Source of the DNA: Zopfochytrium polystomum
Lineage: Eukaryota; Chytridiomycota; Chytridiomycetes; Chytridiales; Chytridiaceae
DNA length: 64,000 nt
NCBI GenBank assembly: GCA_025765615.1
Contig: JAIVFJ010000018.1
Span: forward strand, 434,001 to 498,000
Reading direction: 5' to 3'
Part shown: positions 16,795 through 59,161 of the stretch, one piece after another
How positions within the stretch are numbered: the first letter of the stretch is position 1
Layout of the letters: each line of letters begins with the position of its first letter
Translations under genes and position numbers: made by a program
Notes under the pieces: generated by a model
The model's database searches: none
Told to the model about the DNA's origin: nothing
What the model saw: the letters and a program-made list of their open reading frames with translations, nothing else

Positions 16795-19700
16795 ATGTCC
16801 AAACGCTGTTGCCCAACATGTGGCGGTGTCGACCACCAACGATCGACCAGCAAGAAATGTCGCGCAAATCAGGGCTGCCTGTTCTGTGGCAGTGCTTCAC
16901 ATTTCAGTAACCAATCCTTCAACTGTCCCTCATTCCCTGGCTGCTCTTCATGTGGGCAGAGGACTCATTTAAATCAGGACTCGCATCTCTGCCCCCAATT
17001 TCCCGGCTGCACGTCCTGTGGACTCCTCAGTCACTCAAGCCCAAACTCCTGTCACTGCCCAAACCGCCAGCCATGCCCACGATGTGGCCTCAGGAACCAC
17101 CTTGACGAGCGCTCCCGCCTTTGCCCTCGACCTTGCCTCACTTGCTTGCGCAACAACGAACCTGCTGACATTGCGGAAACCCATGAGTCCCTGAATTCTC
17201 TCGACTGTCCCTATCGCCCAGCATGCGACACCTGTGGCAGCATGGATCACCTCAACTACCAGAGCAATGACTGTCCTGGCCACATCCCCTGCCGTGCCTG
17301 TGGCCAAAGAACCCATCGAAGCAGAAGTGATCGACGATGCCCATGGACAATTGCTCAGCTCGGAATAGCAGTGGCTAGGGAATTTCGTGCAGACCAGGTG
17401 AGTTCCATTTTCTTTTGCCTGCTGTGTTGGCCATTCCTCCTGACAGCCCATCCCGATATTCGCTTTTTTCCCCCCCTCAGATTCGGGCGGGCAAAGATGT
17501 TGACAAGGACCGTCGCTGCCACTTCCTCGGCCAGATGCAGACAGCCTGTCCACTCTGCAATGCAATCATGTTCATCCAAGAGCGCACCAGTGGATCATCA
17601 AAAAAAAACCCAACGTTTTCACTCTGCTGCAGTCGTGGTCAAGTCTCCCTGCTGCCGTTGGCTGGCCCAACTCCCTTCATCAGTGAGCTACTCCTGGGCA
17701 ATCACCGCCTGTCCAATGAGTTCCTGTCCAACGCACGCAACTACAACAGTCTCATGGCTTTTGCATCTGTTGGTGCAAACATCAAGAGCCACGGCCAAGG
17801 TGTTCCAGTCTTCACCATCAGTGGACAGCTTCACCACAGCATCTCCAACTTTTGCAACAACCCCCAGGACCAGCCCAAGTTCTCTCAGATGTACATTTAT
17901 GATTCTGCCCAGCAGTTCAACGCCAGAATGACAGTCGCTGGAGGATTTGGCTCCTTGCGCCCACTTCCAGAAATAGTGCAGAGGCTACAGGCTGAATTGC
18001 TGGAGGTGTGTTACTCTCTCTTCTGTTTGTGGTTCTTCAATGCCTGATGTTGACTCCCTTTTTTTTTCCTTTGCTCTTTCCCCACCAAAGTTCAACCCAT
18101 ATGCCAGGCTTTATCAGACAGCAGGAGAGTGTCTCCGTCGCAATCCATCAGAAAGCTTTTGCATCCAATTTTGCTCACCCTCTGCTCAGACTGGAGTTAT
18201 CAACCGGACTACCTACAATGCTCCGACTGGTGACGTCATTGCTGCAATCCTGCCTTCAGACCTGGAAGTGGAGGAAGGTGCCCATCGAAGCATTGTTGTT
18301 AGGGCGCTGGATGGCAGATTTGTTCAGATTCCTCCTGAACACCCCTGCTACCTGCCACTGGCCTACCCTCTGATCTTCCCCTGTGGTGACCAAGGCTGGA
18401 TGGATGGTATTGCAAAAATTATACCACGGACTGGACAGGATCAGGACAGGACAGGACAGGATCTGGACGGGACAGGACGGAATCTGGACAGGACTGGGGG
18501 TGGCCAGGGTGATGCGATTCGTGGTGATGACAATGAGGATTCTGACGACGAAACTCCTGGGGATGCCTATGGTGCTGCAGCAGATGATGCAGACCCTGAG
18601 GAGGATTTTGATCTGGAGGCAGATGGTGATAATGGCTCTGATGGTGACATTGCCAGCAGCCATGGTGGTGAGGGGAGGGCGAGGAGGCAGACAACTGTTA
18701 CAATGTCCCAGTACTACCGCTACCGGCTCATGGTCCGGCTGGGCTCTCACATGCACCTGTACAGAAAGCTGTTTCAGCAGCTGATTGTGGACCTCTATGT
18801 CAGTGTTGAGTCAAACCGCCTGCGCTTCATCCGACACAACCAAAAGAAGCTGAGGGCTGCAGATTATCATGGATTGCATGATGCTGTCAGGTCAGATGTG
18901 ACAAACCCTCTTCAGGTGGGGAAGCGGATAGTTCTTCCTTCCAGCTTCCCTGGCTCCCCACGCTTCATGCAGCAGCAGTACCAGGATGCAATGAGCATTG
19001 CACAAAAGTATGGGAAGCCAACTCTATTCATCACTTTCACTTGCAATCCAAAGTGGACAGAGATCACAAGCAACCTGCTTCCTGGGCAGAGTGCTGTTGA
19101 CAGGCCTGACTTGGTGTCAAGGGTGTTCAACCTGAAGCTGAAGAGCGTGCTGGAGGATTTGAAAACCTGCTTTGGCAAGCAGGTTGCAGTGGTTTGGGTG
19201 GTTGAGTTTCAAAAGCGTGGCTTGCCCCATGCCCACATTGCTTCCTGGCTGGACCCCAGTGACACACCACAGAGCCCAGATGACTATGACAGATTCGTGA
19301 GTGCAGAGCTGCCTGACCCTCAGCAGGATCCAGAGCTCTACAGGATTGTCACAGAGACCATGATTCACTCTTGCTCAGACCGTTGCAAACCTGCTGGCGC
19401 CTCAAAGTGCACAATGGGGTATCCCAAGCCGTGGGTTGATCAGACTCAGGTGTCTCCTGAAGGTGGCGTCAAGTACCGGCGCAGAAACAATGGACAGCAT
19501 TTCACCCTCCGAGGTGGCTTTGAAGTGGACAACCGGTGGGTGGTTGCATTCAACCGGTATCTGTCCAGAAAGTACCAGGCGCACATCAATGTGGAGATTT
19601 GCGCCACCATGAGGGCCATCAAATACCTCATGAAATACTTGCACAAGGGCCATGACAGAGCAAAGGTGGCAGTTGGCTCTGGAGAAGTCACTGTCTGCGT

Positions 19701-22140
19701 GGATGAGATCAACGAGTTCCTTGACGCCCGCTATGTGTCTGCTCAGGAGGCCTGCTGGAGGGTCTTCCAGTTCCACATGCAAGGCCGGATACCGTCAGTC
19801 ACAAGATTAGCTGTGCACCTCCCTGACCAGCAGTCGGTTTACTTTGACGAGGATGCTGATCTTGGGGAAGTCGCTGCCCTTCAGAGGGACTCCAAGCTTC
19901 TTGCTTTCTTCAGCCTCAACGAGCGCGACCTTGATGCAAGGCAGTGGCTGTACTTTGAAATTCCTGAGCACTACACGTGGAACCAGAGGCATGCCAGGTG
20001 GGCAAGGCGGAGGAGGCAGCAGGCTGCAGCAACCATTGGAAGGATGTATGCAGCAAGCCCTCGGGACTCTGAGAGATATTTTCTCCGCGTTCTCCTGGCC
20101 AACGTCCGAGGCCCTACCTCATTTGAACACCTCAGGACTGTGGACGGAACCACCTTTGGAACATTTCAGGAAGCCTGTGTGCGACGTGGACTGACTGCAG
20201 ACGATCGTGAGGCAGTTCGGTGCTTGCAGCAGGGTGTGCGCGTGATGACAAGCTCAAGGGAGTTCATCAGGCTGTTTGCATTGCTCCTTGCTTTCAATGC
20301 TCCGGCTGATCCAAGGGCTCTGTACAACGATTTTAAGCATGAGATGGTTGCCGACCAGCTTCGCGCAGCTCAGCTGGAGCATGGGAATCTGGATCTTGCC
20401 CCTACAGACCACATGTACTGCACAGCACTGAGGCTTCTGGACTCATCCCTGCAGAGTATGTCAACCTCACTACGCAACTTCCCCACCCTGCCGCAGCTGG
20501 AAGAGTTCCAACCTGAGCCTGTGCTGGCGCTGGAGGGCCGACTCCAGCTGATTTTTCAAAGGCTAAACGCAGAATACAATCAGCAGCAACTGGAGGCTGT
20601 TGTGGCAAACGCTGAAAGGAACTTCAACCAGGAGCAGGCCTTTGCTTACAGGGCTGTGGTGGATGCGGTTGAGCAATGTGGACAGCCTGGAGTGGTGCCT
20701 CCTCCAGAAGGCCGAATCTTCTACCTACAGGGAGTGGGAGGATGTGGCAAGACCTTTGTCTACAATGCCATCTTGGCAAAAGTCCGCAGCAGCCAAGGTC
20801 GCTTTGGACAGGGCCGCATTGCCCATGCTGTGGCTTCTTCAGGAATAGCAGCGCTTCTGCTTGCCGGCGGCACAACTGCCCACTCTCGATTTGCCATCCC
20901 CATTCAGCTTGATGCTGATTCTCAGTCTGGAATCAAAATGTCCACTGACCGTGCGCTGGAGCTGTACTTGGCTGATCTCATTGCGTTGGATGAGATATCC
21001 ATGCTCAACTCCTTGGCACTGGATGTCATTGACAGAGTCTTGCGTGATGTTGTCAAGCCCTTGGATCCTCAGATGGCTGAAACCCCCTTTGGAGGAAAAG
21101 TGGTGCTTCTTGGGGGCGACTTCCAGCAGACTGCACCTGTTGTGCCCAACGCCACAAAGACCATGATTTTGCAGGCTTCCTGCAAGTTCTCGAAACTTTG
21201 GAGGAATGTCAGGACGCTTGAGCTGAGAACCAACATGAGGCTTGCCCAGGGAACTGCAAATCAGGATGCAGTCAATTTTGCCCGATGGTTGGGCCACCTT
21301 GGCACAGGCAGCCTGGCGCATTTTGACACTCAAGATGGGACACCCAATCACGTCGTGGTCCCAGACTACATCAGTACCCTCACCTTTCCCGCAAACAATG
21401 GCAGTTTTCGTGTGAGGCAACTGTTTGAGGCAGTCTATGATGACTTTGGTGCAGTAGCTCAGCAGCCAGGAGAGGAATTTGCATCCTACTTGGCAGACAG
21501 GTGTATTTTGGCTGCAAAGAATGACGTGGTTCATCTGTTCAATGAGTATGCGGTGCAGCAGCTTCCAGGAGATGCCCAAGAGCTGCTTTCAGCAGACACC
21601 CCAGTTGGAGATGATGGAGGTGACGGACTTATCATCAGCCCTGAGTTCCTAAACACCCTCAGCCCTCCCAGCCTGCCTCCCCACAGGCTAACTGTCAAAG
21701 TGGGAATGCCTCTGATCCTGCTTCGCAACCTTACAGATGGACTCTGCAATGGGACACGCCTCATCCTACGGGAAGTCTGCCCCAACGTGCTGCTCTGTGA
21801 AGTTGTTGTGGGCAGCAGAAAAGGAGAGAAAGTCCTTCTTCCCCGAATCTCTCTGCAGCCCAGTGATTCAGGATTTCCCTTTGAGTTCACCAGAAAGCAA
21901 TTTCCAGTTCGGCCTGCCTTTGCAATGTCCATCAACAAGTCCCAAGGACAGACTTTGAAAAAGGTTGGCCTGGATATGTGGCAGGATGTGTTTGCACATG
22001 GACAGTCCTATGTTGCTTTTTCCAGAGTGACATCCCCAGCAGATCTTATAATAACTGCAAAACACAATGAAGAAAGAGGTGGACCAACTATTAGAAATGT
22101 GGTTTACAATGACTTGGTGAATCATCTTAGAGCTAATTGA
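16795..22140 (+). CDS. Helitron RepHel protein (HUH replication initiator fused to Pif1-like helicase)
   Basis: Three exons join in phase: 16795-17397, 17481-18005 and 18091-22140, with introns GT-AG of 83 and 85 bp, giving about 1,725 residues. Exon 1 encodes seven tandem zinc-knuckle-like units of the form C-x2-C-G-x3-H-x6/7-C. Exons 2-3 hold the Helitron-like N-terminal domain. The Rep domain follows: FITFTCNPKW, KRGLPHAHIASW (HUH) and IKYLMKYLHKG (two-tyrosine motif). The C-terminal helicase has GVGGCGKTF (Walker A), LIALDEISML (Walker B), GGDFQQTAPVVP, INKSQGQTLKKV and YVAFSRV. The protein nicks and unwinds DNA for rolling-circle transposition. All key residues are present and exon 3 is open for 1,349 codons, so it looks functional. 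A GGACAGGAC minisatellite (18428-18500) inserts an acidic Gly/Asp/Arg linker in frame. The ATG choice is the first in frame before the knuckles. Confidence 0.92.
18428..18500 (+). repeat. In-frame GGACAGGA minisatellite in the RepHel gene
   Basis: Degenerate tandem repeats of ACAGGACAGGATCTGGAC encode a G-Q-D-x-T-G linker between the Helitron N-terminal domain and an Asp-rich segment, without breaking the frame. Confidence 0.75.
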
Positions 22141-27272: not shown

Positions 27273-27955
27273 GGGTCTTGCTATAGCCAGCCCTCCGCGA
27301 CTTGGAGAAATTGCCAGCCCTGCCGCCCCCGCACATCCCCCTCCAGCCCTTTCTTGATTTTTCAATTCTTTATTTTCTTTCCATTTTGGGAGGAGACAAA
27401 TTTCGAAAAACAGACAGAAAAGGAAGGCATAAAGGAGTGAAGACAAAACAAACTCCTGCGTCAACCGACACTTCCTCTGCGTCACCGGACCCGAGCCGAC
27501 CCTGGAAACTCCGGTCTTATGTTCGTCGAGGGCAAGTGCACTTCTTGCGGCCTGGTAGATTGCAGTGGCTGCACTTTCGCTGCTGCTCCTGCGCTTCAAC
27601 ATGCTCAAAGTAACTGGGATCTCGTGTGATGGACTTTTGAGGTCGTCTGTTTTTTGCACCAGGTGGGCGACCTCGAGAAGACACCTTTGCAGGTTCCTTA
27701 ATCAACTGCGTCATTGTACCACTGAGAGTCTCATTGAGAATATCAAGTATTCGCTGCCGTTAAGCTGCTGGTAGTGTTGTGGCTATCTGCGCAATTTGGC
27801 TGATCTCGTTGATTACATTGTTTGGCCTGACAGTATGTTCAGCTGTGGCTGCCTCAGGCGCATCAATCAGCCAGTGCGGGTCAACGTCGTTGCAGTTGAG
27901 CTTGTGACCGCCAGCGATCAAAGCGCCTGTTATGAATCACCCTCTGGAAACCTCT

Positions 27956-28010
27956 GGAACCTTCTAGAACATTCCTTCATGGAACCTTGTGGAACCTTCT
28001 GGAACCTTCT
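27956..28010 (+). promoter_or_regulatory. Heat-shock-element arrays in the LTR
   Basis: 27956-27975 reads GGAACCTTCTAGAACATTCC: four perfect alternating 5-bp modules nGAAn/nTTCn. 27981-28010 holds six more modules with a single mismatch (GGAAC CTTGT GGAAC CTTCT GGAAC CTTCT). Alternating nGAAn and nTTCn is the binding-site code of eukaryotic heat-shock factor, which needs three or more modules. The site lies about 110-160 bp upstream of the TATA box. Confidence 0.8.
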
Positions 28011-28073
28011 TTGCTTTCCTGACTTGTCTTGTTGTCATTGGTATCATTGGTATCATTGCATTACTAATTGCTC

Positions 28074-28088
28074 TTTCTGGAACTTTCT
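28074..28088 (+). promoter_or_regulatory. Proximal three-module heat-shock element
   Basis: TTTCT GGAAC TTTCT: three perfect contiguous modules, about 30 bp upstream of the TATA box at 28120. Confidence 0.75.
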
Positions 28089-28119
28089 TGGAGTCTTGAC
28101 AAGGAACACTCTCAAAAGG

Positions 28120-28127
28120 TATAAAAG
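28120..28127 (+). promoter_or_regulatory. TATA box of the Ty3 LTR promoter
   Basis: TATAAAAG, 35 bp upstream of the predicted first transcribed bases (AAGTGAATTAT at 28155-28165). Confidence 0.8.
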
Positions 28128-28237
28128 GGGGATGGGGGACCTGTCCCATCCCTCAAGTGAATTATTGTTTCCAATACAATCATCACTCCTCTCAGTTCCT
28201 TGTCTGCCTTGTCCTGTCCTGCCCTGTTCCTGACATC

Positions 28238-28248
28238 ATAATTCACTT
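28238..28248 (+). promoter_or_regulatory. Self-priming primer-binding site
   Basis: ATAATTCACTT, 2 nt downstream of the 5' LTR, is the exact reverse complement of AAGTGAATTAT at 28155-28165 in the LTR, 35 bp after the TATA box. In Tf1 and its relatives the first 11 bases of the transcript fold back on such a site, are cleaved, and prime reverse transcription instead of a tRNA. The usual TGG start of a tRNA-type site is absent. Confidence 0.85.
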
Positions 28249-28275
28249 CACCCTCTCCCACTACTCTCTGCCATC

Positions 28276-29199
28276 ATGTCTGACCCAAACAACACCTTCC
28301 CTGATGCAACTGCCTTCCAAGCCTTGATGGACCAATTACAAGCCCTTTCAAGACAGACACACCAACTTCAAGAACAAGTCCTTCACCAGCAGCACCAGCT
28401 TCAACAACAACTTCACCAACAAGAACATCAAGCTCTTCCCCTGCCTCAAGCCAACCAAGCAAGAGAGCCCAAGGTTCCCAGCCCTGACAAGTTCACTGGG
28501 CTGGCCAAAGACCTTAGGAACTTCATGGCCACTGTGGAGAATGTCATCCTTCTCCAACCTTCAAGATTTCCCAGTGAGCAAGTCAAGGTTCTTTTCACAA
28601 GCACCCTCCTGTCTGGTCAAGCTCAATCATGGTACAGATCTCTCCCAAGCACACCCACCACCCTGCAAGAGCTCTGGGAGGGGCTGGAAGCTACCTTTGG
28701 TGACCCCTACGCATCTTGGACAGCAAGATCCAAGCTCAAGCATATCAAGCAAGGAAAGCAATCTTGTGTGGCCTACACCAACCAATTCAAGCAACTAGCC
28801 AGAGACTCTGGATACAATGATGCAGCTCTGATGGAGCTGTACCATGATGGTCTCCATGAGTCTATCCAAGACATGCTCTCCCAGTCTCTGCACATCCCTG
28901 AGACCTTGGAAGAGTACATTCTCCTTGCCATCAAGATTGACAACAGACTCTACTCCAAGAGGCTGAAGCAAAGACAAGTAGGAACTACATCAAGACCTAC
29001 CCCAGTTCCTCAAGCTCTTACAGTTCCTGAACCCATGCAAGTGGATGCAGTTGAGACACTTCCTAAGGGTCCTCTGAGCCAAGAGGAGAAAACAAGGAGG
29101 GCCCAGCAGGGACTGTGTTTTTACTGTGGCTCCAAGGAGCATGCTGTCAAGGACTGCCCAAGGAAGAAGCACCCAAACTCCCAGGTCCAGGCTCACTGA
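28276..29199 (+). CDS. gag: Gag of Ty3 copy 1
   Basis: 307 residues from ATG 28276. It has an N-terminal Gln/His-rich coiled coil (H-Q-Q-H-Q-L-Q-Q type), a central retrotransposon gag domain containing PSEQVKVLFTSTLLSGQAQS and WEGLEATFGDPYA, and one C-terminal CCHC knuckle, CFYCGSKEHAVKDC. Gag forms the particle that packages the RNA. It ends in frame 1 and overlaps pol by about 85 nt; the overlap contains CCCAAAC at 29172-29178. Confidence 0.95.
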   Translation: MSDPNNTFPDATAFQALMDQLQALSRQTHQLQEQVLHQQHQLQQQLHQQEHQALPLPQANQAREPKVPSPDKFTGLAKDLRNFMATVENVILLQPSRFPSEQVKVLFTSTLLSGQAQSWYRSLPSTPTTLQELWEGLEATFGDPYASWTARSKLKHIKQGKQSCVAYTNQFKQLARDSGYNDAALMELYHDGLHESIQDMLSQSLHIPETLEEYILLAIKIDNRLYSKRLKQRQVGTTSRPTPVPQALTVPEPMQVDAVETLPKGPLSQEEKTRRAQQGLCFYCGSKEHAVKDCPRKKHPNSQVQAH

Positions 29200-32100
29200 G
29201 GGGCAATTCCCTGGACCCTCCTCCAAGCTGCCCCTGTTTCATCACCACCACCAGCACCACAAACACCTCAGATTCCAAGCCCCACCAACTCACCATGGAT
29301 GTCAAGATTCAACTCTCACCCAAGTCAACCATCACAACCAAGGCCCTTATAGACTCTGGATCATCCTGCAACATCATTGATGCCACCCTTGCCAAGTCTT
29401 GTGCCATTCCTACGATCAAGAAATCCACACCTCTCAAGGTCCACTTTGCCAATCATGCTCTGTTCAAGGAAATCAGACATGAAACCAAGCTAAACCTCCA
29501 CATCCAAGACTTTCCACCATCCATGGTCAATCTGGAAGTATTGGATCTTGGCTCACCCACATTCTCTGTCATCCTGGGATTACCATGGCTGCAAGCCCAG
29601 AACCCTGCCATTGATTGGGTCACTGGTCAAGTCCAACCTCCACCAATTGGAACAGTCACCCAAAACTCAAGTCAAGCCCCCAAGTCTCATGCTCTCAAGC
29701 CCTTGATTCAAGATTCACAGCCAGCCAAGACTCCAGTTCCACAGTTCACAGTTCACAGTCAAGATTCAAGTAGAGCTCATAGAGCTCACAGTCATGGCCA
29801 TGACTCTTGTTCACAGAACCCACAGTCAAAGATTCAAGTACCACAGTTCACAGTCCACATTCAAGATTCAAGTTCCACAGCTCACAGTCTTTGCCAAGAA
29901 CAGAACTCTCAGTCAAAGATTCAAGAATCACAGTTCCCAGTCAAGATTTCAAGCCCCACTGCTGAGGAGCACGACAACCTGGACCCATCAGACCTTTTGC
30001 TGGCATCCAAGCTACCAAAAGAATATCTCCCTTATGCTGATGTGTTTTCCAAGACCAAGGCAGACCTGCTACCAGCTCAGAGGCCTTATGACTGTGAAAT
30101 CCCACTCAAGGATGAAACTTGCAGCCCACCTTTCAAGCCACTGTACCACCTCTCTCCACCAGAAGCCAAGGCCCTCCAAGAATACATTGAAGAAATGCTG
30201 AACAAGGGATTCATCCAACCTTCCAAGTCACCAGCTGGAGCTCCCATCTTTTTTGTCAAGAAGAAGGATGGGGGACTGAGACCCTGTGTGGACTACAGAG
30301 ATCTCAATGAGATGACAGTCAAGAACCGCTATCCACTGCCTCTCATCTCTGAATTACTGGACAAACTGAGCCATGCAAGGATATTTTCCAAGATTGACCT
30401 CAGAGGTGCCTACAATTTGGTCAGAATTAAGCCCCAGGATCAATGGAAGACTGCCTTCAGATGCAAATACGGTCACTTTGAGTACTTGGTTATGCCCTTT
30501 GGACTTACCAATGCTCCAGCTATTTTCCAAGGCATGATGAATGACATCTTCAGGGATATTCTGGACCTTTTTGTCATTGTCTACCTGGATGATATCCTGG
30601 TATTTTCATCTGACACTGCAAGCCATATGGGACATGTCAAGACTGTCTTGGAGAGACTCAGACAGCATCACCTCTATGCAAAGCTGGAGAAGTGTGAATT
30701 CCACAAGACCTCCATTGAGTTTTTGGGGTTCATTGTGTCTGACAAAGGGATCTCCATGGCACCAGACAAGATCCAAACTATTCTTGAATGGAAGGCTCCA
30801 AATTCCATCAAGGATGTTCAAAGCTTCCTTGGATTTTGCAACTTCTACAGAACCTTCATTGCCAACTATTCTGCCATAGCCAAGCCTCTCACTGATCTCA
30901 CCAAGAAGACCACCAAGTTTGAATGGACCCCAGCAGCAGAGCAAGCCTGGCTAGCTCTTAAGACAGCAACCACAAGTGCACCACTCCTTAAGCATGTGGA
31001 TCCCTTGCTTCCCTTCACCTTGGAAACTGATGCCTCAGACTATGCCCTTGGCGCTGTTCTGTCCCAGCCAAGCTCTCAGGAACCCTCTGCTCCTCTGCAT
31101 CCAGTGGCATATTACTCCAGGAAGCTGAACAGTGCTGAGTGTAACTACACAGTCCATGACAAGGAGTTGCTTGCAATTGTGGAAGCATTCAAATTCTGGA
31201 GACACTACTTGGCTGGTTCTAAAGGCATCTCTGTCTATTCTGATCACAAGAACCTCACCTTCTTCAGGGCAAGGAGGTTGCTCAAGCAGAGGCATGCCAG
31301 GTGGGCTGAACTGCTCTCTGAGTATGACTTTAAGCTGTGCTATTCTCCTGGCCACCTTAACACTGTGGCTGATGCCCTGTCAAGAAGAACAGACCTTGCA
31401 CCTGAAGGGGGAGATGGTTTCACCCCACCATCCAAGACACACCTTTCATTGCTTCCTGACAGTGTGTGGGCCAATGCTATTTCCAAGGACCCCAAGCCTC
31501 ACAAGATTCAAATCAGCCAAGAAGAGGAAAAACTTGAGATACTCAAGACAAGGCATGATGCAGCAACAGCTGGACACCCAGGAGAGCACAAGACATATGA
31601 GCTTGTTTCCAGAGACTTCTACTGGCCAGGCATGAGGAAGTACATCAAGAACTATGTCAGCAGCTGTGAAACCTGTCAAAGAAACAAATCCAGCAGACAC
31701 AAGCCCTATGGACTTCTGGAGCCCCTCCCAATTGCCATCAGCCCTTGGTCATCAATATCCATGGACTTCATTGTGAAACTGCCCCCATCCCATGGATTTG
31801 ACTCTATCCTTGTTGTCATCTGCAGAAGGACAAAGTTGGCCCATTTCATCCCCTGCACTGAGAATATAGATGCACAAGGAACAGCAGACCTGTTTTTGCA
31901 GCACATATTCAGGCTCCATGGGCTGCCTCAGTCAATCGTCAGTGACAGAGGACCACAGTTCAGATCTCAATTTTGGAAAGCACTCACAGCAGCCCTTGGA
32001 ATCAAGTCTCAACTGTCAACTGCTTATCACCCTCAGACTGATGGACAAACAGAAAGAACAAACCAGACTCTGGAGCAGTATTTGAGGTGCTATGTCAGCT

Positions 32101-32834
32101 ATCAACAGGATGATTGGCCCACCCTCCTTCCACTGGCAGAATTTGCTCTCAACAATTCTCTCCACTCAAGCACCCAGCTATCTCCTTTCTTTGCAACCTA
32201 TGGCTTCAATCCAAGAGGAGATCTTCTGGGACAAGAGACCCTATCCAATGTCCAAGCTCCTGCTGCGGCTTCACACTTACATAAGCTCAAGATCATCAGC
32301 ACCTTCCTGGACTCCACCCTGAAGCAAGCCCAAGAAGATGCCTCAAGATTTGCCAACACTCACAGAATGGACCATGACCTTGCTGTGGGTCAGCAAGTTT
32401 GGCTTCTGAGGAAGAACTTGCAGACCAAAAGACCAAGTCCCAAGCTAGACAACCTCAAGTTGGGTCCTTTCAAGATCTTGGAGCAAATCAATCCAGTCAC
32501 CTTCAAGCTGGATCTCCCTGCATCCATGAAGATCCACCCAGTTTTCCATGTCAGCCTTTTAGAGAAGTTTGTGGCCAATTCCATTCCAGGCAGAGTTGTT
32601 CCTCCTCCTCCTCCAGTTGAGGTAGAAGGTGAAGAGGAATTTGAGGTTGAACAAATCTTGGATGCCAAGTGGTTTGGAAGAACACTCAAGTTCCTTGTTA
32701 AGTGGAAAGGTTACTCAGATGCTGACAACACCTGGGAGCCTGAGTCAAACCTCACTCACTGCCAAGACCTTCTGCTCGAGTTCAAGACCAGGTACCCCAC
32801 CAAGTTGCAGAAGAGGCCTAAAAGGGGGAGATGA
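29115..32834 (+). CDS. pol: Pol of Ty3 copy 1 (protease, RT, RNase H, integrase, chromodomain)
   Basis: Open in the -1 frame relative to gag, with no good ATG at its head (29115 is a GTG), so it is probably made by -1 frameshifting at CCCAAAC (29172). Domains in order: protease ALIDSGSSCNII (D-S-G); RT with KKDGGLRPCVDYRDLN and YLDDILVFS (about 30580); RNase H TLETDASDYALGAVLSQ; integrase zinc finger H-x-H...CETC, then SMDFIVKLP, IVSDRGPQF and the following Glu; C-terminal chromodomain with ILDAKWFGRTLKFLVKWKGY. All active-site residues I can check are present. Chromodomains bind modified histones and steer integration, defining the chromoviruses. Residues 200-290 contain a Q-F-T-V-H-S-Q-D-S type repeated linker. 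Confidence 0.96.
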   Translation: MFLLWLQGACCQGLPKEEAPKLPGPGSLRGNSLDPPPSCPCFITTTSTTNTSDSKPHQLTMDVKIQLSPKSTITTKALIDSGSSCNIIDATLAKSCAIPTIKKSTPLKVHFANHALFKEIRHETKLNLHIQDFPPSMVNLEVLDLGSPTFSVILGLPWLQAQNPAIDWVTGQVQPPPIGTVTQNSSQAPKSHALKPLIQDSQPAKTPVPQFTVHSQDSSRAHRAHSHGHDSCSQNPQSKIQVPQFTVHIQDSSSTAHSLCQEQNSQSKIQESQFPVKISSPTAEEHDNLDPSDLLLASKLPKEYLPYADVFSKTKADLLPAQRPYDCEIPLKDETCSPPFKPLYHLSPPEAKALQEYIEEMLNKGFIQPSKSPAGAPIFFVKKKDGGLRPCVDYRDLNEMTVKNRYPLPLISELLDKLSHARIFSKIDLRGAYNLVRIKPQDQWKTAFRCKYGHFEYLVMPFGLTNAPAIFQGMMNDIFRDILDLFVIVYLDDILVFSSDTASHMGHVKTVLERLRQHHLYAKLEKCEFHKTSIEFLGFIVSDKGISMAPDKIQTILEWKAPNSIKDVQSFLGFCNFYRTFIANYSAIAKPLTDLTKKTTKFEWTPAAEQAWLALKTATTSAPLLKHVDPLLPFTLETDASDYALGAVLSQPSSQEPSAPLHPVAYYSRKLNSAECNYTVHDKELLAIVEAFKFWRHYLAGSKGISVYSDHKNLTFFRARRLLKQRHARWAELLSEYDFKLCYSPGHLNTVADALSRRTDLAPEGGDGFTPPSKTHLSLLPDSVWANAISKDPKPHKIQISQEEEKLEILKTRHDAATAGHPGEHKTYELVSRDFYWPGMRKYIKNYVSSCETCQRNKSSRHKPYGLLEPLPIAISPWSSISMDFIVKLPPSHGFDSILVVICRRTKLAHFIPCTENIDAQGTADLFLQHIFRLHGLPQSIVSDRGPQFRSQFWKALTAALGIKSQLSTAYHPQTDGQTERTNQTLEQYLRCYVSYQQDDWPTLLPLAEFALNNSLHSSTQLSPFFATYGFNPRGDLLGQETLSNVQAPAAASHLHKLKIISTFLDSTLKQAQEDASRFANTHRMDHDLAVGQQVWLLRKNLQTKRPSPKLDNLKLGPFKILEQINPVTFKLDLPASMKIHPVFHVSLLEKFVANSIPGRVVPPPPPVEVEGEEEFEVEQILDAKWFGRTLKFLVKWKGYSDADNTWEPESNLTHCQDLLLEFKTRYPTKLQKRPKRGR
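29172..29178 (+). promoter_or_regulatory. Candidate -1 frameshift site at the gag-pol overlap
   Basis: C CCA AAC fits the X XXY YYZ heptamer and is in register with gag codons (CCA at 29173, AAC at 29176). Slipping by -1 enters the pol frame, 21 nt before the gag stop codon. The same sequence is present in copy 2. I have not modelled a downstream RNA structure. Confidence 0.6.
32819..32834 (+). promoter_or_regulatory. Polypurine tract of Ty3 copy 1
   Basis: TAAAAGGGGGAGATGA immediately before the 3' LTR, the normal place for plus-strand priming; it also contains the pol stop codon. Confidence 0.8.
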
Positions 32835-33142
32835 TGTTATGAATCACCCTCTGGAAACCTCTGGAACCTTCTAGAACATTCCTTCATGGAACCTTGTGGA
32901 ACCTTCTGGAACCTTCTTTGCTTTCCTGACTTGTCTTGTTGTCATTGGTATCATTGGTATCATTGCATTACTAATTGCTCTTTCTGGAACTTTCTTGGAG
33001 TCTTGACAAGGAACACTCTCAAAAGGTATAAAAGGGGGATGGGGGACCTGTCCCATCCCTCAAGTGAATTATTGTTTCCAATACAATCATCACTCCTCTC
33101 AGTTCCTTGTCTGCCTTGTCCTGTCCTGCCCTGTTCCTGACA
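32835..33142 (+). repeat. 3' LTR of Ty3 copy 1
   Basis: 308 bp; I see no difference from the 5' LTR. It is followed by the target duplication GCGCC. Confidence 0.97.
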
Positions 33143-39914: not shown

Positions 39915-40003
39915 AAGACAAGTCGAGGGGCAAAGAAGGTTCCAGAAAGTTCCACAAAGTTCCAGCCAGAAGGTTCCAGAAGGTTCAAGAGGGTGATTCA
40001 TAA
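39915..40003 (-). repeat. Diverged partial Ty3 LTR
   Basis: It matches the first part of the Ty3 LTR in minus orientation, ending GGGTGATTCATAACA. The GAA/TTC heat-shock modules are still recognisable (GAAGGTTCCAGAAAGTTCCA). The rest of the element is absent. Confidence 0.7.
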
Positions 40004-41201: not shown

Positions 41202-43139
41202 TCACTTCTGTGACCTCCTAAACAACCCAAAGAGACCACGACGACGGCTGCCTGGATTTCCCTGCAGCTGATCTGACGAAGCAACACTACTTGAACCACC
41301 ACCAGAATTTGCAGTAGAAGATGGAACGTCAATGAGACTCAATCCTTCAACCTGAACAATAATAGAAGATGCCAGGGAAGATTGGCCCACCAGGAAATCA
41401 GCAATGTCAGAACGACCACTTCTTTTGGCAACATCCAAAGGTATTTCACCATCTGCGTTAACTGCAGAAGTATTCGCATCCTCAGTGAGCAACAGCTTCA
41501 CAACGTCTAAATGGCCATTCTTAGCTGCAATGTGAAGCGGTGTCCACTTGAAGTTGATCTCAGCTTTAACATTGGCACCTTCCTGCACCAACCACTTCAC
41601 TACTTCCAAATGGCCGTTCTGAGATGCAATGTAGAGTGGTGTTTCCTTGTCCTTGTTCTCAGCATCCACAGTGGCACCCTTCTGCACCAACCACTTCACA
41701 ACGTCCAAATGGCCGTTCCAAGATGCACAATGGAGTGGTGTCGACATGTCCACATTCTCAGCATCCATGGTGGCACCCTGCTGCACCAACCACTTCACGA
41801 CTTCCAAATGGCCGTGATGAGATGCACTGTGGAATGGTGTCCACTTGTCCACATCCTCAGCATACATTGTGGCACCCTGCTGCACCAACCATTTCACAAC
41901 TTCCAAATGGCCCTTCTGAGATGCAATGTAGAGTGGTGTCCATTTGTCCTCTTCCTCCGCATCCACGGTGGCACCCTCCTGCACCAACCACTTCACAACT
42001 TCAAAATGACCGTCCTGAGATGCAATGTGGAGTGGTGTCCTCTTCCTCTTGCTCTCCGCATCCATGGTGGCACCCTGCTGCACCAACCACTTCACAACTT
42101 CCAAATGGCCGTCCTGAGATGCAAAGTGGAGTGGTGTCCACTTGTCCTTTTCCTCAGCATCCACAGTGGCACCCTGCCGAACCAACCACTTCACAACTTC
42201 CAAATGGCCGTTCTCGGATGCAAAATGGAGTGGTGTGCACTTGTCCTTGGTCTTAGCATCCACAGAGGCACCCTGCCGCATCAACCACTTCACAACTTCC
42301 AAATGGCCGTTCTGAGATGCAAGGTGGAGTGCTGTCCACTTGTCCTCTTCCTCAGCATCCACGGTGGCACCCTGCCACATCAACCACTTCACAACTTCCA
42401 AATGGCCGTTCTGAGATGAAAAGTGGAGTGGTGTCCACTTGTCCTTGTTCTCAGCATCCACGGTGGCACCATGCTGCACCAACCACTTCACAACTTCCAA
42501 ATGACCCTTCTGAGATGCACTGTGGAGTGGTGTCCACTTGTTGTTGCTCTCAGCATCCATTATGGCACCCTGTTGCACCAACCACTTCACAACTTCCAAA
42601 TGGCCGTCCTGAGATGCAAAGTGGAGTGGTGTCCACTTGTCCTCTTCCTCAGCATCCACGGTGGCACCCTGCCACATCAACCACTTCACAACTTCCAAAT
42701 GGCCGTTCTTAGATGCAAAGTGGAGTGGTGTCCACTTTTCCTTGTTCTCAACATCCACAGTGGCACCATGCTGCACCAACCACTTCACAACTTCCAAATG
42801 GCCGCTATAAGATGCACTGTGGAGTGGTGTCCACTTGTTGTTGCTCTCAGCATCCACGGTGGCACCCTGCTGCACCAACCATTTCACAACTTCCAAATGG
42901 CCGTTCTGAGATGCAATATACAGTGGTGTCCACTTGTCCACATCCTCAGCATCCATGGTGGCACCCTGCTGCACCAACCACTTCACAACTTCTAAATGGC
43001 CGTTTTGAGATGCAGTGTGGAGTGGTGTCCACTTGTTGTTGTTCTCAGCATCCACAGTGGCACCCTGCTGCACCAACCACTTCACAACTTCTAAATGGCC
43101 GTTCCAAGATGCAATATAGAGTGGTGTCTGCTTGTTGTT
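41202..43139 (-). other. Main ankyrin-repeat array of the receptor
   Basis: About 17 units of 99 bp, nearly identical in sequence, plus a diverged last repeat and a Ser-rich linker to the tail. Two more units lie beyond the LINE (51592-51700). Variable residues are concentrated after D-A-E (NNN, EED, DVD, SNN, NKD) and in L-H-x-A-S-x-x-G-H. The open frames on the opposite strand are shadows of this array. Confidence 0.9.
43121..43139. repeat. LINE target-site duplication, 3' side
   Basis: GTGGTGTCTGCTTGTTGTT, identical to 51573-51591. It is followed by the poly-T (poly-A of the element). Confidence 0.95.
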
Positions 43140-51591: not shown

Positions 51592-53369
51592 GTTCTCAGC
51601 ATCCACAGTGGCACCCTGCTGCACCAACCACTTCACAACTTCCAAATGGCCCTTTTCAGAGGCAACATGGAGTGGCATCCTTCCAGTCGAGTCAACTTCA
51701 CCAAGGCTGCTGCTATTTGCAAGAAACCATTCATGAAGTTGCTGTTCATCATGAATACTTTCAAAAAATTGCCATTTGGGATCTGTGTTTGTCCGTTGCT
51801 GTTTGTGAGCATTCATCAGCCAGGATAAAAAAAAAAAAAGTAAATCCACTTACAGATTTTGCAATTCCTTCATCCATTTTGCAATAGTATATGTGCAGCC
51901 ATATTTGGAGGCTGTCCATCCATCTGCATCAACAAGGCTGGGTCACCCCCAACTCCAAAAGGGCAAGGACTGTTTGTGAATGTCTGTTCATTGCTGCAAC
52001 CATTAATGGGGTCCTGTTCTCTTCACCATATTCCATCTGTCACCCGAACTATTGCCTCTGGAATCAACATCTTCCCCTCCTTCCTCAATCAAAGATCTGC
52101 ATGCTGACGTCATTCCTCTCCTTGCAGCCTCGTAGAGCAGGTTTGATGAAAAGACTCTCAGTTGCATGGCCCTTGTGACGATTAACTTGCCATCTCCTGC
52201 AGCTAGAACACTCTCAACAAACCATTCCGACTTCCACATGATTCCCACAAAGCGCTGCTGGCCCAAACTTGTCCACATCAGCAAACTCCTTCCACTCAGC
52301 CCAACCGGCAACCACATCAGGCCCAGCTTCATCCAGGTGGTCAAACCAAACTTGAAGGCATACTGGGCTGTGGCATTCTCAGGGATGAACCCAGCAGTCC
52401 CATTCAGGGCTTCATACTTGTTTTCAACAGAATGATGGTGCTGCAGCATGATCCTCAAACAGGACTGAGCAATTTCATTTCTTGCTTCCAAAATATCAAT
52501 AAAGAACTGGGGGTCTGAACATCTCGTGCTTGAAACAAGGTGATCTGAGAGACTCTTGTGCATCACTTTGACCTTGCCATGGTCACTGACATCCAGAATA
52601 CGATGAATCTGCAATATTGTTAATATTGGTCATAAAAATCAAACTGAATTAGAATTAACACTTGCCTCAACAAGGACTTGGCCAACCACATGAGGTGCAA
52701 CACCCAGGAGCTCAGCAATGACATCTTGGGGTATGGGCTCCTTGGCAGCCAGAACAACCTTCATCACAAGTCGAAAGTTGTTGGTGTTGACCTTGCTGGA
52801 TCTGAAAAACTACTCATACACTCCATCAATGCCAGCACCAAATCCCTTGACGGTGCTGACAACTTTGTCTGCTGGAACTTGGGCCAGCTCATCGCAGGCA
52901 ATGCGAGCAAACTGGAAAATGCCAGAGGACCTCTCATAGATCTCAGCAGACACTGTCTTCACATCATCTGGACTCAGCACACCACCAGGAAATGACTTGG
53001 ACAGAGTGGCTTCAACAAACAGGTTCATGGCGTTCTTGTTTGCTTCATCACTGGCACAAGGACCATTGAGTCCATCTTCATCATGGTGTGGAACACATCC
53101 TGCTCAGGCCTTCCAGTGGTGAATATGCTGACAAAGGGAGGCAAGTTCCCTTTTTGCCTGCACAAAGGAGATCCAGCCGTTTCTTCCTCTTTCATTGCTG
53201 TCCAGGGAGCTCCGCACTCATCCAATGCATCAACAATCAGCAGAACCTTCTTCATCTTGTCGCTGGAATCCAATTGCTTCAATCCTTCAACAAACAATCG
53301 CTTGAAGGCCACTTCAGGGTCCTTGAGAATACTGGAAGCCTCCATTCTTGGCATCTTCAGCACAAGCAG

Positions 53370-53722
53370 TGTCAGGAACAGGGCAGGACAGGACAAGGCA
53401 GACAAGGAACTGAGAGGAGTGATGATTGTATTGGAAACAATAATTCACTTGAGGGATGGGACAGGTCCCCCATCCCCCTTTTATACCTTTTGAGAGTGTT
53501 CCTTGTCAAGACTCCAAGAAAGATCCAGAAAGAGCAATTAGTAATGCAATGATACCAATGATACCAATGACAACAAGACAAGTCAGGAAAGCAAAGAAGG
53601 TTCCAGAAGGTTCCACAAGGTTCCATGAAGGAATGTTCTAGAAGGTTCCAGAAGGTTCCAGAAGGTTCCATGAAGGAATGTTCTGGAAGGTTCCAGAGGT
53701 TTCCAGAGGGTGATTCATAACA
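53370..53722 (-). repeat. 3' LTR of Ty3 copy 2
   Basis: 353 bp, TG...CA ends in minus orientation, next to the duplication AGCAG at 53365-53369. Confidence 0.96.
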
Positions 53723-56700
53723 TCATCTCCCCCTTTTAGGCCTCTTCTGCAACTTGGTGGGGTACCTGGTCTTGAACTCGAGCAGAAGGTCTTGGCAGTG
53801 AGTGAGGTTTGACTCAGGCTCCCAGGTGTTGTCAGCATCTGAGTAACCTTTCCACTTAACAAGGAACTTGAGTGTCCTTCCAAACCACTTGGCATCCAAG
53901 ATTTGTTCAACCTCAAATTCCTCTTCACCTTCTACCTCAACTGGAGGAGGAGGAGGAACAACTCTGCCTGGAATGGAATTGGCCACAAACTTCTCTAAAA
54001 GGCTGACATGGAAAACTGGGTGGATCTTCATGGATGCAGGGAGATCCAGCTTGAAGGTGACTGGATTGATTTGCTCCAAGATCTTGAAAGGACCCAACTT
54101 GAGGTTGTCTAGCTTGGGACTTGGTCTTTTGGTCTGCAAGTTCTTCCTCAGAAGCCAAACTTGCTGACCCACAGCAAGGTCATGGTCCATTCTGTGAGTG
54201 TTGGCAAATCTTGAGGCATCTTCTTGGGCTTGCTTCAGGGTGGAGTCCAGGAAGGTGCTGATGATCTTGAGCTTATGTAAGTGTGAAGCCGCAGCAGGAG
54301 CTTGGACATTGGATAGGGTCTCTTGTCCCAGAAGATCTCCTCTTGGATTGAAGCCATAGGTTGCAAAGAAAGGAGATAGCTGGGTGCTTGAGTGGAGAGA
54401 ATTGTTGAGAGCAAATTCTGCCAGTGGAAGGAGGGTGGGCCAATCATCCTGTTGATAGCTGACATAGCACCTCAAATACTGCTCCAGAGTCTGGTTTGTT
54501 CTTTCTGTTTGTCCATCAGTCTGAGGGTGATAAGCAGTTGACAGTTGAGACTTGATTCCAAGGGCTGCTGTGAGTGCTTTCCAAAATTGAGATCTGAACT
54601 GTGGTCCTCTGTCACTGACGATTGACTGAGGCAGCCCATGGAGCCTGAATATGTGCTGCAAAAACAGGTCTGCTGTTCCTTGTGCATCTATATTCTCAGT
54701 GCAGGGGATGAAATGGGCCAACTTTGTCCTTCTGCAGATGACAACAAGGATAGAGTCAAATCCATGGGATGGGGGCAGTTTCACAATGAAGTCCATGGAT
54801 ATTGATGACCAAGGGCTGATGGCAATTGGGAGGGGCTCCAGAAGTCCATAGGGCTTGTGTCTGCTGGATTTGTTTCTTTGACAGGTTTCACAGCTGCTGA
54901 CATAGTTCTTGATGTACTTCCTCATGCCTGGCCAGTAGAAGTCTCTGGAAACAAGCTCATATGTCTTGTGCTCTCCTGGGTGTCCAGCTGTTGCTGCATC
55001 ATGCCTTGTCTTGAGTATCTCAAGTTTTTCCTCTTCTTGGCTGATTTGAATCTTGTGAGGCTTGGGGTCCTTGGAAATAGCATTGGCCCACACACTGTCA
55101 GGAAGCAATGAAAGGTGTGTCTTGGATGGTGGGGTGAAACCATCTCCCCCTTCAGGTGCAAGGTCTGTTCTTCTTGACAGGGCATCAGCCACAGTGTTAA
55201 GGTGGCCAGGAGAATAGCACAGCTTAAAGTCATACTCAGAGAGCAGTTCAGCCCACCTGGCATGCCTCTGCTTGAGCAACCTCCTTGCCCTGAAGAAGGT
55301 GAGGTTCTTGTGATCAGAATAGACAGAGATGCCTTTAGAACCAGCCAAGTAGTGTCTCCAGAATTTGAATGCTTCCACAATTGCAAGCAACTCCTTGTCA
55401 TGGACTGTGTAGTTACACTCAGCACTGTTCAGCTTCCTGGAGTAATATGCCACTGGATGCAGAGGAGCAGAGGGGTCCTGAGAGCTTGGCTGGGACAGAA
55501 CAGCGCCAAGGGCATAGTCTGAGGCATCAGTTTCCAAGGTGAAGGGAAGCAAGGGATCCACATGCTTAAGGAGTGGTGCACTTGTGGTTGCTGTCTTAAG
55601 AGCTAGCCAGGCTTGCTCTGCTGCTGGGGTCCATTCAAACTTGGTGGTCTTCTTGGTGAGATCAGTGAGAGGCTTGGCTATGGCAGAATAGTTGGCAATG
55701 AAGGTTCTGTAGAAGTTGCAAAACCCAAGGAAGCTTTGAACATCCTTGATGGAATTTGGAGCCTTCCATTCAAGAATAGTTTGGATCTTGTCTGGTGCCA
55801 TGGAGATCCCTTTGTCAGACACAATGAACCCCAAAAACTCAATGGAGGTCTTGTGGAATTCACACTTCTCCAGCTTTGCATAGAGGTGATGCTGTCTGAG
55901 TCTCTCCAAGACAGTCTTGACATGTCCCATATGGCTTGCAGTGTCAGATGAAAATACCAGGATATCATCCAGGTAGACAATGACAAAAAGGTCCAGAATA
56001 TCCCTGAAGATGTCATTCATCATGCCTTGGAAAATAGCTGGAGCATTGGTAAGTCCAAAGGGCATGACCAAGTACTCAAAGTGACCGTATTTGCATCTGA
56101 AGGCAGTCTTCCATTGATCCTGGGGCTTAATTCTGACCAAATTGTAGGCACCTCTGAGGTCAATCTTGGAAAATATCCTTGCATGGCTCAGTTTGTCCAG
56201 TAATTCAGAGATGAGAGGCAGTGGATAGCGGTTCTTGACTGTCATCTCATTGAGATCTCTGTAGTCCACACAGGGTCTCAGTCCCCCATCCTTCTTCTTG
56301 ACAAAAAAGATGGGAGCTCCAGCTGGTGACTTGGAAGGTTGGATGAATCCCTTGTTCAGCATTTCTTCAATGTATTCTTGGAGGGCCTTGGCTTCTGGTG
56401 GAGAGAGGTGGTACAGTGGCTTGAAAGGTGGGCTGCAAGTTTCATCCTTGAGTGGGATTTTACAGTCATAAGGCCTCTGAGCTGGTAGCAGGTCTGCCTT
56501 GGTCTTGGAAAACACATCAGCATAAGGGAGATATTCTTTTGGTAGCTTGGATGCCAGCAAAAGGTCTGATGGGTCCAGGTTGTCGTGCTCCTCAGCAGTG
56601 GGGCTTGAATTCTTGACTGGGAACTGTGATTCTTGAATCTTTGACTGAGAGTTCTGTTCTTGGCAAAGACTGTGAGCTGTGGAACTTGAATCTTGAATGT

Positions 56701-57442
56701 GGACTGTGAACTGTGGTACTTGAATCTTTGACTGTGGGTTCTGTGAACAAGAGTCATGGCCATGACTGTGAGCTCTATGAGCTCTACTTGAATCTTGACT
56801 GTGAACTGTGAACTGTGGAACTTGAGTCTTGGCTGGCTGTGAATCTTGAATCAAGGGCTTGAGAGCATGAGACTTGGGGGCTTGACTTGAGTTTTGGGTG
56901 ACTGTTCCGATTGGTGGAGGTTGGACTTGACCAGTGACCCAATCAATGGCAGGGTTCTGGGCTTGCAGCCATGGTAATCCCAGGATGACAGAGAATGTGG
57001 GTGAGCCAAGATCCAATACTTCCAGATTGACCATGGATGGTGGAAAGTCTTGGATGTGGAGGTTTAGCTTGGTTTCATGGCTGATTTCCTTGAACAGAGC
57101 ATGATTGGCAAAGTGGACCTTGAGGGGTGTGGATTTCTTGATCGTAGGAATGGCACAAGACTTGGCAAGGGTGGCATCAATGATGTTGCAGGATGATCCA
57201 GAGTCTATAAGGGCCTTGGTTGTGATGGTTGACTTGGGTGAGAGTTGAATCTTGACATCCATGGTGAGTTGGTGGGGCTTGGAATCTGAGGTGCTTGTGG
57301 TGCTGGTGGTGGTGATGAAACAGGGGCAGCTTGGAGGAGGGTCCAGGGAATTGCCCCTCAGTGAGCCTGGACCTGGGAGTTTGGGTGCTTCTTCCTTGGG
57401 CAGTCCTTGACAGCATGCTCCTTGGAGCCACAGTAAAAACAC
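53723..57442 (-). CDS. pol: Pol of Ty3 copy 2
   Basis: 1,239 open codons, differing from copy 1 at only a few residues. It has the same domains (protease D-S-G, RT YLDDILVFS, RNase H, integrase, chromodomain) and the same lack of a good ATG. It is presumably reached by -1 frameshifting at CCCAAAC. Confidence 0.95.
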   Translation of the reverse strand: MFLLWLQGACCQGLPKEEAPKLPGPGSLRGNSLDPPPSCPCFITTTSTTSTSDSKPHQLTMDVKIQLSPKSTITTKALIDSGSSCNIIDATLAKSCAIPTIKKSTPLKVHFANHALFKEISHETKLNLHIQDFPPSMVNLEVLDLGSPTFSVILGLPWLQAQNPAIDWVTGQVQPPPIGTVTQNSSQAPKSHALKPLIQDSQPAKTQVPQFTVHSQDSSRAHRAHSHGHDSCSQNPQSKIQVPQFTVHIQDSSSTAHSLCQEQNSQSKIQESQFPVKNSSPTAEEHDNLDPSDLLLASKLPKEYLPYADVFSKTKADLLPAQRPYDCKIPLKDETCSPPFKPLYHLSPPEAKALQEYIEEMLNKGFIQPSKSPAGAPIFFVKKKDGGLRPCVDYRDLNEMTVKNRYPLPLISELLDKLSHARIFSKIDLRGAYNLVRIKPQDQWKTAFRCKYGHFEYLVMPFGLTNAPAIFQGMMNDIFRDILDLFVIVYLDDILVFSSDTASHMGHVKTVLERLRQHHLYAKLEKCEFHKTSIEFLGFIVSDKGISMAPDKIQTILEWKAPNSIKDVQSFLGFCNFYRTFIANYSAIAKPLTDLTKKTTKFEWTPAAEQAWLALKTATTSAPLLKHVDPLLPFTLETDASDYALGAVLSQPSSQDPSAPLHPVAYYSRKLNSAECNYTVHDKELLAIVEAFKFWRHYLAGSKGISVYSDHKNLTFFRARRLLKQRHARWAELLSEYDFKLCYSPGHLNTVADALSRRTDLAPEGGDGFTPPSKTHLSLLPDSVWANAISKDPKPHKIQISQEEEKLEILKTRHDAATAGHPGEHKTYELVSRDFYWPGMRKYIKNYVSSCETCQRNKSSRHKPYGLLEPLPIAISPWSSISMDFIVKLPPSHGFDSILVVICRRTKLAHFIPCTENIDAQGTADLFLQHIFRLHGLPQSIVSDRGPQFRSQFWKALTAALGIKSQLSTAYHPQTDGQTERTNQTLEQYLRCYVSYQQDDWPTLLPLAEFALNNSLHSSTQLSPFFATYGFNPRGDLLGQETLSNVQAPAAASHLHKLKIISTFLDSTLKQAQEDASRFANTHRMDHDLAVGQQVWLLRKNLQTKRPSPKLDNLKLGPFKILEQINPVTFKLDLPASMKIHPVFHVSLLEKFVANSIPGRVVPPPPPVEVEGEEEFEVEQILDAKWFGRTLKFLVKWKGYSDADNTWEPESNLTHCQDLLLEFKTRYPTKLQKRPKRGR

Positions 57443-58281: not shown

Positions 58282-58308
58282 GATGGCAGAGAGTAGTGGG
58301 AGAGGGTG

Positions 58309-58319
58309 AAGTGAATTAT
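58309..58319 (-). promoter_or_regulatory. Self-priming primer-binding site of copy 2
   Basis: Plus-strand AAGTGAATTAT, 2 nt inside the 5' LTR end. It is complementary to 58392-58402 within the LTR, exactly as in copy 1. Confidence 0.85.
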
Positions 58320-58321
58320 GA

Positions 58322-58674: not shown

Positions 58675-59161
58675 AGCAGCATCACAAAACTTCCTGAAGG
58701 AAGGAAGCACACTGCAAAGATTCCAGATGGTGGTGGCAACAACATGCTGGGGGCTGCTCTTCTGCACATCATCATGCCTGCAGTAGAATATCGACCCCAA
58801 CACATACTTGGCAGGCAGATGCTGGCTGACAAGCCAAGCAATCACAGACTTTCCAAGACCTGCTCCACCATTCAGCCACAGCACATTACCCACATTGGCA
58901 GACTGGAGCCAAGAGTGCACATTATCCAGATAAAACTTCCTTGTTCCATCCACATAGGCACTCTTGTGCCTCTCAGCATCAACAGCAATATCCACTGGCT
59001 TGAGCCAAAGTTTCACTTGATCAACAGGTGTCTGAACAACAGCTACCACAGAGACAGGTGTCTGACTCTGACGCAGCTTAATCTCTTTCACAAGGACGGA
59101 CATCTGATCATTCCATTCAGGGGATCCAGGAACTTTCCCAGCAAAATCAGCATACAGCAAA

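Follow-up and report, generated by a model that had tools for sequence, protein, structure and literature searches.

Arrays of heat-shock-element modules in the LTRs of a Ty3/gypsy chromovirus of the chytrid Zopfochytrium polystomum suggest a promoter driven by heat-shock factor

A long terminal repeat (LTR) packed with alternating GAA and TTC triplets raises the question of whether the retrotransposon that carries it is controlled by the heat-shock factor (HSF) of its host. Such LTRs were found in a 64,000-nucleotide stretch of Zopfochytrium polystomum DNA, which is called the window here. A first-pass annotation had assigned one of them to a chromovirus, had interpreted its triplets as heat-shock elements (HSEs) and had proposed that the element transposes under heat or stress.

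The window contained two copies of the element. Copy 1 (27928-33142, plus strand) was 5,215 bp long; its 308-bp 5' LTR (27928-28235, plus strand) was a direct repeat of its 3' LTR (32835-33142, plus strand) with an identity of 308/308, and the 5-bp target-site duplication GCGCC was present on each flank. Copy 2 (53370-58674, minus strand) was 5,305 bp long and had 353-bp LTRs that matched at 352 of 353 positions, with a confirmed target-site duplication of AGCAG. The interiors of the two copies differed at 15 of 4,599 bases, and in the open reading frame list the gag and pol frames were uninterrupted in both. The gag of copy 1 (28276-29199, plus strand) matched PF03732 (Retrotrans_gag, E 1.5e-12). 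According to the open reading frame list and the Pfam scan, the stop-to-stop pol frame of copy 1 (29067-32834, plus strand) encoded protease, reverse transcriptase (RT), RNase H, integrase, SH3_Tf2-1 and a chromodomain; the order of the Pfam matches in 29067-32831 was PF13650, PF00078, PF17917, PF17921, PF00665 and PF00385, the C-terminal one being the chromodomain. Paired LTRs, 5-bp target-site duplications and a gag with the capsid domain PF03732 were joined by gag and pol frames open in both copies and by a copy 1 pol ending in a chromodomain, and the element is therefore a Ty3/gypsy chromovirus, as the first-pass annotation had labelled it. A search with gag revealed 25 relatives, the best with 68% identity over 79% of the query; comparison of the RT segment with viral contigs revealed no relative.

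Copy 1 adjoined a frame with a MULE-type transposase domain (PF10551; 33145-34368, minus strand), and it probably landed inside another transposon, since this frame lies beside it. An NPHP3_N (STAND/NACHT-type) domain was encoded by a minus-strand frame (52003-53369 and 58675-59172) that either contains copy 2 or adjoins it; copy 2 possibly interrupts a fungal NLR-like gene. Long ankyrin-repeat frames were present elsewhere in the window. Inverted blocks of 99-bp repeats were found at 1-1197 and 41376-43135, with paired arms 83-91% complementary among the pairs listed; the block at 41376-43135 encoded apparent ankyrin repeats (WLVQQGATVDAE...), judged by eye. A 1,387-codon open frame at 17977-22140 appeared by eye to be Helitron-type Rep/helicase-like, and the frame upstream of it contained cysteine-rich repeats.

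The modules were mapped by scanning for runs in which perfect GAA and TTC triplets alternate every 5 bp. In the 5' LTR of copy 1 (plus strand), four perfect modules (GGAAC CTTCT AGAAC ATTCC, GGAACCTTCTAGAACATTCC) were located at 27956-27975, with cores at 27957-27974. Six modules with one mismatch (GGAACCTTGTGGAACCTTCTGGAACCTTCT) followed at 27981-28010, the last four of them perfect (27992-28009), and a promoter-proximal run of three modules (TTTCTGGAACTTTCT) was found at 28074-28088, with 32 bp between the end of its last core and the TATA box, TATAAAA. All three groups had been described in the first-pass annotation, the last as lying about 30 bp before the TATA box, and each was recovered. 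The 3' LTR of copy 1 contained the same runs (32864-32881, 32899-32916 and 32982-32994, plus strand). The array of copy 2, which had escaped the earlier annotation, was larger than that of copy 1. In the 5' LTR of copy 2 it extended over 58548-58645 (minus strand) with runs of four (58548-58565), eight (58583-58620) and four (58628-58645), in addition to a promoter-proximal three-module run at 58470-58482 (minus strand); in the 3' LTR it extended over 53596-53693 (minus strand), again with runs of four, eight and four, and there was a single base change within the promoter-proximal run. The perfect runs per LTR were thus 4, 4 and 3 in copy 1 and 4, 8, 4 and 3 in the 5' LTR of copy 2. A relic of an older LTR subfamily (39915-40003, minus strand), said earlier to keep the modules, indeed contained two runs of four (39935-39952 and 39969-39986); when used as a query, it retrieved itself and 39 related places, with 40 of 464 candidates being scored.

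In total, 15 runs of at least three modules were found in the window, all within the LTRs of copies 1 and 2 or the relic. The 62,367 window bases outside the LTRs and the relic contained no run of three, the mean in 40 first-order Markov simulations being 1.0, and 31 runs of two, compared with a simulated mean of 47.75. Part of the array consists of near-identical 10-bp units repeated in tandem; its modules therefore did not arise independently of one another, and simple motif probabilities make the array look more surprising than it is. Simple motif probability was consequently dropped as the main argument, and the position of the modules, the host promoters and the classes of sites were used instead.

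The motif was highly abundant in the genome assembly, which consisted of 80.16 Mb in 761 contigs. The four-module pattern GAANNTTCNNGAANNTTC had 7,339 matches, compared with 10 for the reversed pattern, and the exact 20-mer GGAACCTTCTAGAACATTCC occurred 2,523 times, compared with no occurrence backwards. Among the first 100 places listed for the 20-mer, 18 were a second site within an LTR already represented (hand count), and by extrapolation from these about 2,000 LTRs would carry the exact 20-mer. A total of 304 runs of at least four modules were found in 53.9 kb of sampled LTR sequence, in which loci overlap and the counts are not independent; 308.6 kb sampled outside LTRs, some loci again overlapping, contained no run of at least four and six runs of three.

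The position of the modules was examined relative to the predicted start of the RNA. The TATA box TATAAAA (GGTATAAAAGG) was located by script at 28120-28126 (plus strand). In Tf1-like self-priming, the 5' end of the RNA primes reverse transcription. Eleven nucleotides at 28155-28165 (plus strand), 35 bp downstream of the first base of the TATA box, were the exact complement of a priming site at 28238-28248, just past the LTR, and mark the likely RNA 5' end. This match was present in both copies, and 7 of 10,000 shuffles of the site matched equally well. A post-LTR priming site complementary to the predicted RNA 5' end is the arrangement of Tf1/sushi-type elements. Because of the TATA box and the 11-nt match, the RNA start was placed near 28155, which is likely. 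Relative to this predicted start, the modules occupied two intervals in the predicted U3, about -199 to -145 and about -81 to -67, both upstream of the core promoter. As in ONSEN-type LTRs, at least four adjacent alternating GAA/TTC modules therefore preceded the TATA box. Across 118 copies, the self-priming site showed 0.5% change compared with 3.1% elsewhere (P = 0.003), which demonstrates that constraint is visible in a sample of this kind; no special conservation was seen for the TATA box, with 2.4% change (P = 0.64).

If the LTR responds to the HSF of the host, HSF-type proteins and comparable sites in host promoters would be expected. The HSF DNA-binding domain had 14 matches in the genome, some of which were exons of a single gene or near-identical loci; the best four spanned 94-100 of 100 positions. 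All 14 loci showed FVRQLNMYGFHKV, and they comprised several sequence types. The HSP20 domain profile PF00011 had 33 matches. Two of the three HSP20 upstream regions that were read carried GGAATTGTCCAGAARCTTCC, a site of four modules with one mismatch located 63-65 bp before TATAAAA, in the form GGAATTGTCCAGAA(A/G)CTTCC; the third did not carry the four-module site. For comparison, when 200 stretches of 820 bp were drawn at random from the first 27 kb of the window, 3 of them held four modules in a row with at most one mismatch. Genome-wide, the HSP20 site had 11 exact copies, 8 copies with two mismatches and none backwards. Nine of the 11 exact copies preceded an HSP20 domain of the same strand by 347-388 bp, and among 13 full or nearly full HSP20 domains the exact site was upstream in 8 and not in 5; the HSP20 copies are paralogues and their sites are therefore not independent. 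The HSP20 promoters of the host and the LTR thus share one kind of module array.

The promoters of HSP90 genes served as positive controls, and no strong sites were seen in them. No run of three perfect modules was found in the 2.4-2.5 kb read upstream of two HSP90 genes, and one of these regions contained GAAGGTTCC, arranged with gaps, some 200 bp ahead of a TATA-like box. The host side of the ONSEN-type comparison was thus made up of encoded HSF domains and HSP20 promoters with the motif, and of HSP90 promoters without a run of three modules.

Three further observations were made at these loci. The HSP20 gene at G000:C1:203529-203831 (upstream region L148) had no four-module site near its TATA box and had an A-run where the paralogue sequence differed; an exact HSP20 site was found on the same strand at G000:C1:211596-211615, some 7.8 kb farther from the gene in the upstream direction. 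The promoter of this gene looks as though a poly-A-ended insertion had split it. Perfect four-module sites (GGAATTTTCCAGAANGTTCC), which are two-mismatch relatives of the HSP20 site, were located at G000:C15:210923, C63:173440, C247:31930 and C377:27095. Several HSF and HSP20 loci also occurred in pairs or triplets with identical or near-identical scores (contigs C17/C403, C7/C459/C655, C58/C256 and C133/C260/C283), which suggests separately assembled haplotypes or recent duplications, so that copy numbers may be inflated.

The variation of the array was analyzed in 110 LTRs, after identical rows had been collapsed and 12 of 122 rows that were nested, chimeric, mis-parsed or without an LTR start had been dropped. 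These LTRs consisted of an old form with an AGCT spacer (n = 13), two 308-bp forms (n = 12 and n = 51), a form with one extra 45-bp unit (n = 31) and a form with two extra units (n = 3). The median number of modules in runs of at least three was 7 in the AGCT-spacer form, 10 and 8 in the 308-bp forms with 12 and 51 copies, 16 with one extra unit and 23 with two. A run of at least four was retained in 100 of the 110 arrays, part of this set having been picked by its array. Among copies picked by the downstream part only, a run of at least four was present in 30 of 30 near-identical copies and in 47 of 56 other loci, the remaining 9 of the 56 having no run of four. Sixteen of the 110 copies were more than 4% diverged and 11 of these retained a run of four; searches with the tails of old LTRs again yielded young copies for the most part, and truly old copies remain few.

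Arrays were scored as enlarged when more than 115 bases lay between the LTR start and the array end. Among 86 tail-picked, uncollapsed loci, 5 of them without an LTR start, enlarged arrays were found in 24 of 33 copies with at least 99% downstream identity to copy 1, in 8 of 29 copies with 97.5-99% and in 0 of 19 copies with lower identity; shared descent and the presence of two LTRs per element make the association with age weaker than these counts suggest, and likeness to copy 1 is a proxy for age only. Collapsing rows identical in the LTR and 15 upstream bases, which removes many 3' LTRs, reduced 81 LTR rows to 62; on collapsed rows, enlarged arrays numbered 15/21, 8/29 and 0/18 with rising divergence. 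Copy 1 itself has a short array, and the association was therefore not built in by the choice of reference. These results showed that array growth by duplication of 45 bp (nine modules) goes with likeness to the young copy.

The first alternative to control by HSF is a neutral tandem repeat, in which slippage and unequal exchange multiplied one chance 10-bp GAAnnTTC unit. The modules would then be functionless, and the 45-bp growth would have hitch-hiked on a successful lineage. Near-identical 10-bp units are what this process would leave; the same LTR contains a second short repeat, ATTGGTATC, twice, and in L110 and L114 most of the array has been lost, the arrays having collapsed to a few modules, the opposite of the 45-bp expansion. 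A selection test bears on this alternative. Its premise was that, if the modules work, variants that have spread avoid the GAA/TTC cores and private changes made after insertion do not. Variants common to at least two copies fell at 10 free and 4 core positions, with 40% of sites being free (P = 0.018; one two-LTR element excluded), which leans against neutrality. Private variants showed no preference (22 free, 26 core; P = 0.25), as neutrality also predicts, and the contrast between common and private variants was not significant (one-sided Fisher P = 0.083). In the proximal run across the 118 copies, cores varied about three-fold less than free sites, again not significantly (1.0% compared with 3.5%, and 3.1% elsewhere; P = 0.12). 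Taken together, these data are suggestive of selection on the module cores and do not prove it. A neutral repeat also has to accommodate the separate run beside the TATA box, although this run is similar to the units of the array and may have arisen together with them, as well as the same motif in host HSP20 promoters and the lack of runs of four in the rest of the sample. On this evidence, we consider a functionless repeat unlikely.

The second alternative keeps the modules functional and assigns them to another protein with the HSF fold, Sfl1-like or Skn7-like, which would use the array for silencing or for development, such as zoospore formation, rather than for heat. Sfl1 binds inverted GAA repeats as a repressor, and proteins of the Sfl1 and Skn7 types carry the HSF DNA-binding fold. 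The several sequence types among the 14 HSF-domain matches leave room for such a protein; however, the module pattern matches that of the HSP20 promoters, which points to the ordinary heat-shock regulator, and the enlarged arrays nearest the young copy suit an activator better than a repressor. This alternative appears quite unlikely. That the array acts instead in the genomic RNA, where it would fold or bind a protein close to the 3' end, is very improbable: U3 of LTR elements is transcribed within the 3' LTR and the GGAA...TTCC units are self-complementary, but no such role is needed to account for the phasing of 5 bp, for the proximal run beside the TATA box or for the occurrence of the motif in HSP20 promoters.

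HSP20 promoters with the same type of array, the encoded HSF-type proteins and the position of the modules in U3 make control by HSF the best reading, and the LTR is likely to be an HSF-driven promoter. The element is probably triggered by heat or protein-damaging stress. Of the interpretation in the first-pass annotation, the HSF-type promoter has gained support from the U3 position, the HSP20 sites and the HSF proteins; the induction by heat and the transposition that it proposed are what we infer from such a promoter.

Under the HSF-driven reading, trimers of the host heat-shock factor would occupy both groups of GAA/TTC modules (about -199 to -145 and about -81 to -67), and under heat or other protein-damaging stress the bound factor would bring in the transcription machinery at the TATA box (28120). 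The RNA of the element would then be copied by its own gag-pol. Lineages whose arrays had grown by 45-bp (nine-module) duplications would have left many of the newest copies, because under this model more sites would be expected to mean more RNA during stress. Binding, induction and array growth as a cause of success are steps that we infer. A further reading is tentative and, on present evidence, rather doubtful: the family may be the main holder of strong HSF sites in the genome, and arrays may grow as LTRs with more sites win limited activated HSF. The tally behind the main-holder part of it was 7,339 four-module matches compared with 11 exact copies of the HSP20 site.

The family is a strong, testable case of a heat-shock-type transposon promoter in an early-diverging fungus. 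Its near-identical copies, predicted start and natural variants (medians of 7 to 23 modules) allow the dose of HSF sites to be compared with RNA output and genomic success. It also raises the question of how a heat-shock response runs with thousands of strong HSF sites in transposons.

Heat-shock promoter elements in terminal repeats have been known since the 1980s from DIRS-1 of Dictyostelium, a tyrosine-recombinase element of an order unrelated to the Ty3 chromovirus. The best-described LTR system is that of ONSEN/ATCOPIA78 and other heat-responsive copia elements of Brassicaceae, which, according to the passages of PMC3907296 and PMC5059998 on these elements, have LTRs in which nGAAn modules are clustered, the strongest class being that with four or more modules side by side. 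The same passages report that the ONSEN LTR is bound by HSFA2 and that full heat activation needs HSFA1 factors together with HSFA2 (PMC3907296, PMC5059998). The Zopfochytrium chromovirus is like ONSEN in its cluster of modules in the LTR. It differs in that ONSEN is a plant copia element with a cluster of four nGAAn modules, and TERESTRA of A. lyrata, in the same passages (PMC3907296, PMC5059998), has six; the chytrid element is a Ty3 chromovirus in which up to eight modules follow one another without a break and the subfamily medians range from 7 to 23 modules in runs. Helitrons of Caenorhabditis contribute a substantial share of the HSEs of their genome, in high-density clusters that are bound by HSF-1, as described in part of PMC6927752; unlike the chytrid chromovirus, they are DNA transposons without LTRs.

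Ty3 elements have also been studied under heat. PHRE1 and PHRE2 of moso bamboo are Ty3/gypsy LTR elements, like the present one, whose activity under heat stress was studied in PMC8656106; the terms HSE, heat shock element and HSF are absent from the main text of that paper. MAGGY and Pyret of Magnaporthe, LTR retrotransposons like the chytrid element, are associated with genomic instability under heat shock and copper in the relevant part of PMC3978060, the main text of which does not contain the terms "heat shock element" or "HSE". Both were placed in chromodomain-containing clades by PMC2864245, which, in the part concerned, treats self-priming in general terms. Among fungal LTR elements, the Ty3/gypsy element TCN3 of Cryptococcus has two putative HSEs in its LTR and TCN12 has one, according to passages of PMC12810828 (2026), whereas the chytrid element has arrays; the authors state there that activation of transposons by heat shock through host machinery is undescribed in fungi. 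In the passages concerned of PMC8656106, PMC3978060 and PMC12810828, such array length, copy number and array growth were not found, and searches of open-licence PMC papers brought up none that, as listed, described a comparable chytrid element or the growth of an HSE array by duplication. For the earlier statement that no Ty3 chromovirus with arrays this long was known, the passages on PHRE1/PHRE2, MAGGY/Pyret and TCN3 gave no counterexample in array length; it needs the qualification that Ty3 elements studied under heat have already been published. HSF-driven LTRs are thus already known from ONSEN and have been proposed for the fungal Ty3 element TCN3, and what is new here is the enlargement of the array by 45-bp duplication.
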